The position numbers and the translations under genes were made by a program. Shown piece by piece: positions 18,527 to 22,149 of a stretch of DNA of 64,000 nt (within the stretch, counting starts at the first letter, position 1; the number at the start of each line of letters is the position of its first letter). The notes beneath the pieces are model-generated. The model made no database searches. It was not told the DNA's origin and saw only the letters and a program-made list of their open reading frames with translations. The stretch is from Halorientalis marina (GTDB lineage: Archaea > Halobacteriota > Halobacteria > Halobacteriales > Haloarculaceae), in the NCBI RefSeq assembly GCF_023028345.1, contig NZ_CP095487.1, positions 930,001 to 994,000 of the forward strand, given 5' to 3'.

Positions 18527-18659
18527 ACCACTACACCCCGACTCCGTCCGCATAAAGTTACGTCAGACATTCACATCCTTTCTGATACGTCCGGCGCGGT
18601 CGAAAGCGGTGGTCCTGACCCTCGACCGATCAAGAACTGTGCTCGACCGCGAGTGTCGG

Positions 18660-18759
18660 GACAATCGATCAAAACACTACTTCGATAGCCAATTTATGAT
18701 AGTTTGATTAACAAGTGGCAATATTTAATCCGGTTGAAATTCATTGTAACGTATAACTA
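18660..18759 (+). promoter_or_regulatory. AT-rich promoter region of the PQQ-propeller cassette
   Basis: About 100 bases that are markedly richer in A and T than anything nearby, between the divergent DUF7518 and PQQ-propeller genes. Two TATA-like boxes are visible: AATTTATGAT around 18690-18699 and AATATTTAAT at 18720-18729. The second is 31 bases upstream of the propeller ATG (18760), the right distance for a short-leader archaeal transcript. No clear operator repeat is seen. The composition shift suggests either a strong, TBP-accessible promoter or the edge of acquired DNA. Confidence 0.5.
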
Positions 18760-21168
18760 ATGAATGAACAGTCGGGTGGAACGTGGGGAAGGGCTAGCGA
18801 GCGGTTCGACAGGCGGACGCTCCTGAAGACCGGGACCTTGGCAGGGGCCAGCCTGGCTGGCCTGACTGTGAGTCCGTCCGCCAGTGCGCAGCGACGAGGC
18901 GAGGACCGAATGCGGTGGTCGTTCTCGACGGGCGAGCGGGTGTACTCGTCGCCGACAGTGGTTGGCGGCACCGTGTACGTCGGAAGTTACGACGGCAACG
19001 TGTACGCGCTGGATGCGAGCGATGGCACCGAACGGTGGCGCTTCCAGACGGGCAGACCTGTCGCGTCGTCGCCGATGGTGACGGACGGCACCGTGTACAT
19101 CGGAGGTGGGGACGAGAACGTGTACGCGCTCTCAGCGCCCGATGGGACCGAACGGTGGCGCTTCGAGACGGACGGTCGTGTGGGGTCGTCGCCGACTGTA
19201 GCGGATGGCACCGTGTACGTCGGGGGTGAAGACGGGAACGTGTACGCGCTCTCAGCGCCCGATGGGACCGAACGGTGGCGCTTCGAGACGGACGGTCGTG
19301 TGGGGTCGTCGCCGACTGTAGCGGATGGCACCGTGTACGTCGGGAGTGAAGACGGGAACGTGTACGCGCTCTCAGCGCCCGATGGGACCGAACAGTGGCG
19401 CTTCGAGACGATCGACGAGGTGATTTCGTCGCCGACGGTAGCGGACGGGACTGTCTACGCCGGGAACGCGGACAGTCGGGTGTTCGCGCTTGCGGCGAGC
19501 GATGGAGCCGAACAGTGGCGCTTCGTGGCGTACGAGAGTGGTGGTGGGCCCCCCGGCGTCGGTTCGTCACCGACAGTGGCGGACGGCACTGTCTACGTCG
19601 GCAGTCTGGACGGCGCTGTGTACGCGGTCTCGGTGAGCGATGGCACTGAACGGTGGCGTTTCCAGACGGACGATGGCGTCCAATCGTCGCCGACAGTAGC
19701 GGACGGCGTCGTCTACGTCGGGAGTGGGGACACTCACCTCTACGCGATCGATGCGGGCGACGGGACCGAACAGTGGTTCTTCGAATCGGGATCGCCCGTG
19801 TTCTCGTCCCCGACGGTCGCGGACGGGACCGTCTACGTCGGGACCTACGGCGGGAACGTCTACGCGCTGGATGCGGAGATCTCGGGGTCGTCGGACGGAT
19901 CGCGGGTGACTCTGCGGACGCTTGGTCATCACGAACAGCCTCGCACGGAGGGGACACCCTCGTCAGGTGACGGCAGGCAAGAGTCCCTTCCCGAGTCGTT
20001 CGTCGAAGCGGCCGACAGTAAACGGTCGCTGGCGGCCGACATCGACGAACTCGCTGTGTACGTCTCCGAACGGGAGCGGGTCGAAGCGCTCCTCTCGACG
20101 TACACCGACGATCTCGAAGCCGGCGCGTTCGACGACGAGCAACTCCCGAGGGACGCTGTCAGACGGCTCATTTTCGGCGAACGCATCTCGAAACGCCTCC
20201 TCGAAACGACGACCGCGACGGACGGTGTGGGGAACCAACAGCAGGTGGCCGTCACCACCACCGAATTCATGATCAAACTCGGCGTCTCGGTCGCCCTGTT
20301 GCAGGTCTCGATCACCGAACTCCTGGCTGATCCTAGACTGTCCGGGTTAGTCCCCAACGGCGATCTCCTGCGAGCACTCCTCGACGGGGCGTTCGAGGAT
20401 CTCCTCAGCCTCGGCTTTTCGGAGGCACGCCAGACGGAAGCGGCGACTGCTATCACTGAGATAGTCGACGATCCCTACGCCGATTCGCTGGCCGACGAGT
20501 ACGGATCGGCCGAAGAGTTCGCCGCCGTCTTCGAGGACCGCGTCTCCGAGACGGCCGCTAACCTCACGCTCCAGCGAACGGTCGAAATCGGCGACGGGTT
20601 CGGACCGTTCGGTACACAACTTCCGGCGACGCTCGCCAGCCGACTCACCAATGCAGAGGCCGGGCTCTCCTCGCTCAACGAGAGGTTCTCGTCCGCGACC
20701 GTCCGCCGTAACGGGCTCGCCGGAACGGACGAGGGGATGCAAGAAGCGTCGGTCGCTGCGACGAACCAACTGGACCGGGTCGCCTCGACAGCAGAAACGT
20801 TTCTGAACGAGCTAGACGCCCGATTGGAGTTCGTAAACATTCTGGAAAACGTCTACAAACTGAGCACCGGGGTCCGGAACGACGAAGAGATCTGGCGGAT
20901 CGCAGGCCTGGTCGGGACCGTCTTTACACAGGCCGGACTGGCGGTCGCAACTGTGCGAGCCATCGGGTCTTTCGTCGGTAAATTCACGATTCAGGCGCTG
21001 ATGACGATCCATGCCCGCGGGATTGCGGGCGTACAGCGCGGTGAGCCGGTTACACTCGACGATGTCGTCGACGCCTTGCGACGACAGGACGACGTTTCGG
21101 CTGCGATTTCGGAGGTCGACGATCGCTGGGACATCGATCTCGATTCGGCTCCGGGGGTCTCCGGATGA
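18760..21168 (+). CDS. Tat-exported 8-blade PQQ-like beta-propeller protein with helical C-terminus
   Basis: An 802-residue exported protein. The Tat signal has the twin-arginine motif DRRTLLK at 22-28, then a hydrophobic stretch (AGASLAGLTV) and an AQR-type cleavage region near residue 47. Residues 55-375 form eight repeats of about 40 residues of the pattern SSPTVADGTVYVG-DGNVYAL-A-DGTE-WRF, the PQQ-like (YWTD/PQQ) blade. Repeats 3 and 4 are almost identical at DNA level. Residues 400-802 are a mainly helical region with no domain I recognise and one weakly hydrophobic stretch (AGLVGTVFTQAGLAVATV). It lacks the residues of PQQ dehydrogenases, so a scaffold or ligand-binding role is more likely than an enzyme. 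The next gene overlaps by four bases (ATGA). Confidence 0.85.
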   Translation: MNEQSGGTWGRASERFDRRTLLKTGTLAGASLAGLTVSPSASAQRRGEDRMRWSFSTGERVYSSPTVVGGTVYVGSYDGNVYALDASDGTERWRFQTGRPVASSPMVTDGTVYIGGGDENVYALSAPDGTERWRFETDGRVGSSPTVADGTVYVGGEDGNVYALSAPDGTERWRFETDGRVGSSPTVADGTVYVGSEDGNVYALSAPDGTEQWRFETIDEVISSPTVADGTVYAGNADSRVFALAASDGAEQWRFVAYESGGGPPGVGSSPTVADGTVYVGSLDGAVYAVSVSDGTERWRFQTDDGVQSSPTVADGVVYVGSGDTHLYAIDAGDGTEQWFFESGSPVFSSPTVADGTVYVGTYGGNVYALDAEISGSSDGSRVTLRTLGHHEQPRTEGTPSSGDGRQESLPESFVEAADSKRSLAADIDELAVYVSERERVEALLSTYTDDLEAGAFDDEQLPRDAVRRLIFGERISKRLLETTTATDGVGNQQQVAVTTTEFMIKLGVSVALLQVSITELLADPRLSGLVPNGDLLRALLDGAFEDLLSLGFSEARQTEAATAITEIVDDPYADSLADEYGSAEEFAAVFEDRVSETAANLTLQRTVEIGDGFGPFGTQLPATLASRLTNAEAGLSSLNERFSSATVRRNGLAGTDEGMQEASVAATNQLDRVASTAETFLNELDARLEFVNILENVYKLSTGVRNDEEIWRIAGLVGTVFTQAGLAVATVRAIGSFVGKFTIQALMTIHARGIAGVQRGEPVTLDDVVDALRRQDDVSAAISEVDDRWDIDLDSAPGVSG
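19141..19380 (+). repeat. Tandem 120-bp repeat encoding propeller blades
   Basis: Two consecutive 120-base units (19141-19260 and 19261-19380) differ by a single base (g at 19225, a at 19345). Each encodes one 40-residue blade. The identity extends partly into the flanking units: the 30 bases before 19141 are near identical to 19231-19260, and the start of the next unit matches to 19393. The other blades are more diverged. This is direct evidence for a recent blade duplication by recombination or slippage. Confidence 0.95.
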
Positions 21169-22070
21169 GCGACCACATCGAGTCGCTGGTCGCAGACCTC
21201 TCGTCAGCACTGGAAAACCGGGAGTTCGACCGGGCCGAGGGGCTGATAACCGACCTGGAGGAGGCGTACGACGAGCGCCGAGCGAACGAACGGAGGACCG
21301 TCGAAGAAACGAAACGACGGTATGCCGAGTCGAGAGGCTACGAAACCGGGCAGAAAGAGACGTTCACCGGTCTGATCAGTGAATCTGGGACGACACAGTT
21401 CACCCGCGTCGCCGCGCTGACGCTCGCTGCTTCGGTCACGGACGCACACGAGGAACTCGCTGAGCAGGGACTTCTCGCCGAGCACGTCGACGCAGCTCGG
21501 ACGAGCCTGGCTGAACTGGCGGCCGCCGAACCGTCGTTCGGGACGACGCTCCAAGCGGTCGACGAGATCGACACGCCGAGCGACGCGGATGGCGGCGATA
21601 CGGGCGAGGACAGTCCGTTCGAGCCGCCCGATTCGTCTGGTGATTCGGACGCGGAACCTTCCACGCCGACGCCGTCAGCGGGGCCGGTCGAAGACGGTCC
21701 GTTCGAACCGCCCGGACCGCCCAGTTCCGCTGGCGAACCGGACTCGGGGACCACCACGGCGACCTCGGGGCCGGCCAATGCCGACGGAAGCACAGGCGAG
21801 GACAACCCGATCGGTCCGCCTGGCCTCCCCGGTGATCCGGAGCCGGAGGCCTCCACGGCGACGCAGTCACCGACCCCAGTCGCCGGTGACGCGACCGCCA
21901 CGACCGGGTCGGAGTCTGCCACGAGCGAGGACGAGTCACCCGAATCCGATGCCGACACCACCACCGGTGACGGCCCTGGCTTCGGACTGTCCAGCACGCT
22001 CGCAAGCGTGGGCGGAGTCGGATACCTGTTCTATCGGCGGCTCACCAGCGAACGGGGAGACGACGAGTAG
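21165..22070 (+). CDS. Partner of PQQ-propeller protein, low-complexity with PGF-CTERM-like tail
   Basis: A 301-residue protein coupled to the propeller gene (ATGA overlap). Residues 1-135 are helical (coiled-coil-like, DLEEAYDERRANERR). Residues 136-268 are a disordered Pro/Thr/Ser/Glu region with three short repeats, PFEPP at 151 and 179 and PIGPP at 215. The C-terminus has PGFG (271-274), then a 16-residue hydrophobic stretch and RR (291-292), the layout of the PGF-CTERM signal cut by archaeosortase A in haloarchaea. Unusually, no N-terminal signal peptide is visible, and the tail continues nine residues past the arginines. Whether it is exported is therefore open. No known family is recognised. 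Confidence 0.7.
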   Translation: MSDHIESLVADLSSALENREFDRAEGLITDLEEAYDERRANERRTVEETKRRYAESRGYETGQKETFTGLISESGTTQFTRVAALTLAASVTDAHEELAEQGLLAEHVDAARTSLAELAAAEPSFGTTLQAVDEIDTPSDADGGDTGEDSPFEPPDSSGDSDAEPSTPTPSAGPVEDGPFEPPGPPSSAGEPDSGTTTATSGPANADGSTGEDNPIGPPGLPGDPEPEASTATQSPTPVAGDATATTGSESATSEDESPESDADTTTGDGPGFGLSSTLASVGGVGYLFYRRLTSERGDDE

Positions 22071-22149
22071 CCCTATTTGAGACCGTCGCCACCACACTCA
22101 CGGGTCGTGGACTGGAACGCGAGTGCACCCTCCGTGTGGGGGGTCCCAG

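Follow-up and report, generated by a model that had tools for sequence, protein, structure and literature searches.

Genes A and B, which lie side by side in a 64,000-nucleotide stretch of the Halorientalis marina genome (contig NZ_CP095487.1, positions 930,001 to 994,000; hereafter the window, with coordinates counted from its first letter), are members of a two-gene family of haloarchaea. Gene A (18760..21168, on the forward strand like all features below unless stated otherwise) encodes a protein of 802 residues, the proposed display subunit exported by the twin-arginine translocation (Tat) system. Gene B (21165..22070) encodes a protein of 301 residues that has no signal peptide and is the proposed adaptor or tether subunit. 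Within the family the C-terminal domain of A and the head of B form a constant core, and the front module of A and the tail of B vary. On balance we favour the reading that A and B fold together inside the cell and cross via Tat with B as a hitchhiker, and that B tethers A to the envelope. The pair represents a new family and, as far as export can be predicted from the sequences, a new form of Tat hitchhiking.

A preliminary description of this DNA had proposed an undescribed exported two-protein surface system in accessory DNA, and this proposal is supported by the constant adjacency of the two genes and by the lack of a family that covers them. When the C-terminal domain of the window's A was compared to 97 relatives, it was matched in only four genomes, namely its own, G009, G052 and, weakly, G019, and a B-like gene was found directly behind A in G009 and G019 and three times in G052. 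A profile of the six A domains of these four genomes run on 391 genomes of the class (E <= 0.001) hit 20 of them, including one false case (G191, rejected as a frame of 1405 residues with no B behind it). Inspection of the 17 new loci showed a B-like next gene in all 16 true ones. Finally, separate profiles of the A domain and the B head were built from 22 pairs and each was run on the same 391 genomes, with E < 1e-10 taken as strong. Strong A domains were found at 24 loci in 22 genomes (28 genomes at E <= 0.001) and strong B heads at 25 loci in 23 genomes (25 at E <= 0.001). The co-occurrence and adjacency for which the preliminary description had suggested a profile search were indeed present: A was followed by B at all 24 strong A loci and at 24 of the 25 strong B loci, where 21 of the 24 pairs are themselves training rows of the profiles. 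The lone B locus, on contig 5 of G168, holds a remnant interrupted by a stop codon, and the 10 kb examined there gave no A match.

The new B-head loci that were judged real numbered seven, five pairs and two broken remnants (G168 and G230). Three of the pairs, in G188, G377 and G038, lie outside the training rows and were new in both searches. The other two, divergent loci in G063, were found with the B profile only, the A profile being blind to the upstream proteins; the C-terminal end of these is helical-looking, hydrophobic and, by eye, A-like. In one G063 pair the Tat signal is clear and the genes overlap by 4 bases; in the other the start of A is unclear. For the comparisons below we used a family set of 25 pairs, made up of the 24 strong pairs and G019 (which is outside the 391 genomes), and left out the two remnants and the two divergent G063 pairs. 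Named members are all haloarchaeal: Halobacteriaceae archaeon SHR40, Halorubrum sp. 48-1-W, Halobaculum and Haloplanus. Among 294 genomes of the phylum five had a match, all in the window's own order, from which the profile had been built. Weak profile matches in G315 and G237 (presumably M28-type peptidases), G199 and G354 (which we take to be eIF2B-like proteins) and G327, G190 and G061 contig 14 (short or unrelated frames) were judged false on inspection; one further weak A match (G168 contig 9, E 9.2e-4) stays outside the pair counts. The B remnants (loci L143 and L149) have no detectable A in the stretches examined, which suggests that the cassette has also been lost in some genomes.

The genes are joined tightly. 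In the window the stop of A and the start of B overlap in the four bases ATGA (21165..21168), exactly as described before, and throughout the family the two genes either overlap or lie no more than 6 bases apart, in two pairs only after the choice of an alternative B start. A fusion of A and B by read-through or frameshifting was considered and rejected, since the junction distance varies (-8, -4, -1, 1, 3 and 6) and no constant frame connects the two. The pairwise distances of the A domains and B heads are correlated (0.955 for 25 pairs, 0.876 for the 21 that remain after four near-identical ones are dropped); the correlation of the A domain with the rest of B was 0.884 and 0.585, respectively.

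Protein A consists of three parts. A twin-arginine motif (RRTLLK, residues 18-23, 18811..18828) is followed by an uncharged stretch of 21 residues. Behind it lies an eight-repeat PQQ-type beta-propeller (residues ~50-375, 18907..19884), the exchangeable N-terminal module in this member, with eight copies of the repeat SSP(T/M)V (residues 63-349) and matches above cut-off to the models PQQ_2 and Beta-prop_ACSF4. The clear Tat signal and the eight blades noted earlier are therefore both confirmed. A falls short of two family models: it scores 124 bits against a cut-off of 480.05 for the PQQ-dependent dehydrogenase model TIGR03075, and 224.5 bits against the equivalog cut-off of 285.2 for the BamB model TIGR03300. 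At the DNA level, 300-base copies recur every 120 bases between 18940 and 19857; compared with the reference copy, identity is 86-87% early in that interval and 67-73% later, and on this basis the blades look recently duplicated. The third part is the C-terminal helical domain (residues 408-802, 19981..21165), the constant neighbour of the B head. The roughly 400 unrecognised helical residues of the preliminary description correspond to the ~395 residues of the window's A after residue 407, a region without any scoring Pfam or NCBIfam model; the same domain in ten relatives, scanned singly, gave no Pfam match either. In the window's A the domain contains a hydrophobic stretch near residues 715-732.

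Protein B starts with a helical bundle, the head (residues 1-136, 21165..21572), the first helix of which begins at residue 2. It continues with a linker rich in Pro, Thr and Glu (21573..21974) at the site where most relatives have a CARDB-type domain, and ends in a PGF-CTERM-like tail (residues 271-292, 21975..22040; PGFG, hydrophobic residues, RR) that is a putative archaeosortase signal. An AlphaFold model built on five aligned rows had a mean pLDDT of 58.8. The head was mostly above 78 (ten-residue means of 78-96 up to residue 130, except for 69 at residues 51-60) and residues 2-17 formed a helix of it. The earlier division into a coiled-coil head, a linker with three PxxPP repeats and a PGFG-hydrophobic-RR tail holds well: the modelled head is helical, the repeats PFEPP, PFEPP and PIGPP are found at residues 151, 179 and 215, and the tail scores below the PGF-CTERM cut-off. 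The window's B matched no Pfam or NCBIfam model at its cut-off, so that no known family covers both full-length proteins. A link to CATRA, based on the CATRA-associated small protein (Pfam CATASP), was rejected at 13 bits versus a gathering cut-off of 29. Foldseek with the B model gave no match at E < 0.001, and in a profile search of solved structures the best hits of the A domain (E 0.006) and of the B head (E 0.0055) were partial and unrelated-looking. Profile comparison showed no likeness between the A domain and the B head. The genome of the window has two matches to the archaeosortase A model TIGR04125 (314.5 and 188.4 bits, cut-off 75). The gene of the second (188 bits; G000, the window's genome, contig 1, 2117220-2118130) lies tail to tail with that of a PGF-CTERM protein with a pilin-like N-terminus, and these two are perhaps a dedicated pair.

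The distribution of export signals over the pair is uneven. The Tat-type test that we applied asks for RR or RK, for a hydrophobic residue at one of the three positions that follow, and for a subsequent stretch of 13 or more uncharged residues. It was passed by all 25 A proteins (that of G400 only with its start moved inward) and by no B protein out of 25. Within the first 60 residues the maximal uncharged run was 13-31 in A, apart from 9 in G377, where the motif is at residue 46. In B it was 4-11, apart from 14 in G297, where the called start is probably too early. The RefSeq starts of B agree with ours in all four plasmid-borne pairs. The missing signal peptide that had appeared odd in the window's B, where the longest run is 5, is thus a constant of the family. 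Two controls put this in context. There are 19 PGF-CTERM matches in the window's genome, and the other 18 proteins all have, by eye, an N-terminal signal or hydrophobic anchor, several of them only with a later start; B is alone in having none. The second control is a set of six G052 proteins with a common dockerin-like tail. Four of them are encoded as the second gene of a pair and are signal-less; the remaining two, whose genes are not immediately preceded by a Tat gene, each carry their own Tat-like or hydrophobic signal. The same genome holds a second type of pair (L177, contig 4, 4881-9208). Here the gene of a Tat protein with presumably GLUG-like repeats overlaps by 4 bases with the next gene, whose signal-less product ends in that dockerin-like tail as well; neither an A domain nor a B head is recognisable in this pair.

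Within the constant core, D429, R469, G655 and G740 of the A domain and R81 and L85 of B are conserved. Outside it the modules vary. Among 22 A proteins, Pfam (E <= 0.01) identified PQQ repeats in six and PKD in 11, and single scans of ten A proteins added FG-GAP, DUF285 and laminin-G (one each) and VWA and CarboxypepD_reg (two each), none of them inside the A domain. CARDB was found in 19 of 22 B proteins (E <= 0.1), in the place that is taken by the linker in the window. The ends of B are PGF-CTERM-like (window and G009), otherwise hydrophobic (G400), type I dockerin (G171), dockerin-like pairs, or helical-looking. Only three of 25 B proteins have a hydrophobic tail of their own and most lack a membrane segment. 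In nine of the 25 operons there is a third gene, C, the product of which starts with a hydrophobic signal and has a hydrophobic segment or a PGF-like tail at its C-terminus (measured in seven operons, by eye in G331 and G201); it was found in none of the three operons whose B has its own hydrophobic tail. As some of the signals of C contain RR, we do not claim that all are of the Sec type. RefSeq labels C as a NEW3 domain protein in three Halobaculum records. In three operons with a helical-tailed B, what follows is a small protein that is hydrophobic in two or three segments. Two C proteins (L081 7587-9086 and L140 6897-8216) have, by eye, a CxxC zinc-ribbon-like end behind the membrane segment; these ends would be cytoplasmic, and a role in signalling is possible.

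Tat substrates fold in the cytoplasm according to PMC12186497. Given that A appears to be a Tat substrate and that B lacks a signal yet has surface modules, joining in the cytoplasm followed by joint crossing is the simplest mechanism. More specifically, A would bring an exchangeable recognition module (here the beta-propeller), a C-terminal helical docking domain and the sole export signal. The head of B would bind the docking domain while both proteins are cytoplasmic, and the folded complex would pass the Tat translocon with B hitchhiking. The tail of B would then fix the complex to the envelope, in the window through a PGF-CTERM-like tail that may be handled by the archaeosortase A encoded in the genome. 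In relatives, tethering could fall to a dockerin-like tail, to a hydrophobic C-terminus of another kind or to the product of a third gene that is itself anchored in the membrane. We infer a recognition or adhesion role for the complex. A broader claim, for which we see about even chances, is that the family is a modular plug-and-socket system of surface display by obligate Tat hitchhiking, in which the A domain and B head join any folded recognition module to any envelope tether before export, a signal-less archaeosortase substrate included.

Several observations weigh against this interpretation. With 21 of the 24 strong pairs used in profile building, the independent share of the neighbourhood evidence is smaller than the counts suggest, and correlated distances are to be expected without any contact, as linked genes are inherited together. 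The predicted structure of the A domain was poor (mean pLDDT 42, five aligned rows). The tail of the window's B stays below the PGF-CTERM cut-off of 24.5 bits (18.2 in the NCBIfam scan, 22.8 in the genome search), is weakly hydrophobic and is followed by acidic residues. Haloarchaea use Tat widely, as stated in PMC12186497, and for that reason the finding of a Tat-type signal on every A carries less weight. The RefSeq start of the Halobaculum magnesiiphilum C corresponds to residue 25 of our reading, inside the hydrophobic stretch. Moreover, for ten of the 25 B proteins there is no hydrophobic tail in B itself and no adjacent C or small membrane protein on the same strand; in two of these ten the contig ends within 0.5 kb.

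Other functions for B have to be weighed against the same data. It could be a cytoplasmic protein dedicated to the hydrophobic C-terminal domain of A, acting as its chaperone or in Tat proofreading. The absence of a signal from all 25 B proteins, the helical bundle predicted for the head and the hydrophobic stretches in the A domain are all compatible with that role. FliS is a flagellar export chaperone, and weak FliS matches were seen in two of 22 B proteins (best E 3.7e-4). But a chaperone would have no need of the CARDB domains (19 of 22), dockerin-like ends and PGF-CTERM-like or hydrophobic tails, which are features of exported proteins, and we regard this explanation as unlikely. A route of its own, by which a leaderless B leaves the cell and meets A outside, would equally explain the lack of a visible signal. 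It leaves unaccounted for, however, that 25 of 25 intact B genes lie directly behind a Tat-type gene, and that a third protein, where these operons encode one, does carry a signal; such a route is decidedly improbable.

Alternatively, the C-terminal tail of B might insert into the membrane and leave the head inside, so that B couples A to the cytoplasm as a sensor, in agreement with the hydrophobic C-terminal stretch of three of 25 B proteins and with the zinc-ribbon-like ends of the two C proteins. This we consider very unlikely, as most B proteins lack a membrane segment, the RR behind the hydrophobic stretch of the window's B favours a head on the outside, and the CARDB domain would come to lie inside. 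The combination of a large modular secreted protein and a smaller gene behind it, together with a patchy occurrence (a strong A domain in 22 of 391 genomes), is reminiscent of a secreted polymorphic toxin (A) and its immunity protein (B). Polymorphic toxins have a variable C-terminal end and a constant N-terminal part. In A the C-terminal domain is constant and the front varies, the reverse of such toxins (compare PMC8416519), and B has surface modules and tails, which makes this the least credible of the explanations, with hardly any probability left to it.

The genomic context is in line with accessory DNA between two conserved loci, as had been proposed. The segment with the pair (18554..22149, no strand assigned) is flanked by a conserved PIN-like gene and by a small gene beside SMC. 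A flanking RNA ligase gene is present in two of seven congeners, and in both the order ligase, PIN-like gene, small gene and SMC is kept, with 0.1-0.2 kb at the site of the 3.6-kb pair. The B head had no match in any of the seven congeners, and gain of the pair in the window's genome is a simpler reading than loss in the congeners. An AT-rich, TATA-like element (18720..18729, ~31-40 bases 5' of the start of A) may serve as promoter. The deviating composition that had been reported applies to the intergenic stretch only: the GC content upstream of A is 0.56-0.58 versus about 0.65, whereas that of the genes themselves is ordinary (0.61-0.71). Elsewhere in the genome of the window (G000 contig 1, 1661512-1661634) a short frame matches the B head over 41 residues (54%) and is probably a decayed fragment.

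Four relatives of the pair are located on replicons listed as plasmids, in Halobaculum roseum, Hbl. magnesiiphilum, Hbl. halobium and Haloplanus sp. GDY1. All four records are typed as non-mobilizable and were found with A domains of relatives; the window's own A domain and two further queries had no match in the plasmid search. The four closest A domains had no match in viral_contigs, which was scanned once. A gene for a tyrosine-type integrase lies directly upstream of the Haloplanus plasmid pair (L178 2993-3619).

If our interpretation is correct, it has consequences beyond this family. Gallego-Parrilla et al. 2024 (PMC10924467) state that signal-less, tail-anchored proteins co-exported via Tat fell outside the scope of their search, and that finding them would call for a search for Tat genes beside genes of tail-anchored proteins. 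The window's pair is such a candidate, archaeal and without a recognised redox cofactor, where a tail of this kind occurs in only three of 25 B proteins. It would provide one reason for the heavy use of Tat in haloarchaea, namely that folded complexes can be joined to their anchors inside the cell. It would also imply that an archaeosortase substrate can do without a signal of its own and that predictions of secretomes miss such partners.

In the titles and abstracts listed from an open-licence library we found no description of the pair or of a signal-less archaeosortase substrate. The nearest known systems share some of its features. BamB and other PQQ beta-propeller proteins resemble A in having a PQQ-type propeller as N-terminal module; in the family this propeller is one of several front modules, and A stays below the NCBIfam equivalog cut-offs. 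The VARTIG modules of the Thermococcales, as described in PMC8416519, likewise have smaller genes behind the gene of a large archaeal protein of several domains, in many cases with a signal, and include CARDB-type domains. They differ in a hypervariable C-terminal Ig part and in being specific to the Thermococcales, whereas A has a constant C-terminal helical domain and the hosts are haloarchaea. With the substrates of archaeosortase A, which include Tat and Sec substrates and have a tripartite tail (PMC7157517), B shares the C-terminal PGF motif, hydrophobic stretch and basic residues, but it differs in lacking an N-terminal signal and in a tail below the curated cut-off. Another parallel is formed by the Tat hitchhikers, heterodimers such as the Ni-Fe hydrogenases and formate dehydrogenases (PMC10924467) and PaoABC (PMC4273604). 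According to these papers, one partner has the twin-arginine signal and the other none, and a C-terminal membrane tail is possible on one partner. The constant genetic partnership of such systems is seen here as well. Nevertheless, these hitchhikers are bacterial redox enzymes with cofactors, whereas A and B are a predicted archaeal case, with no recognised cofactor domain and with exchangeable modules at both ends.

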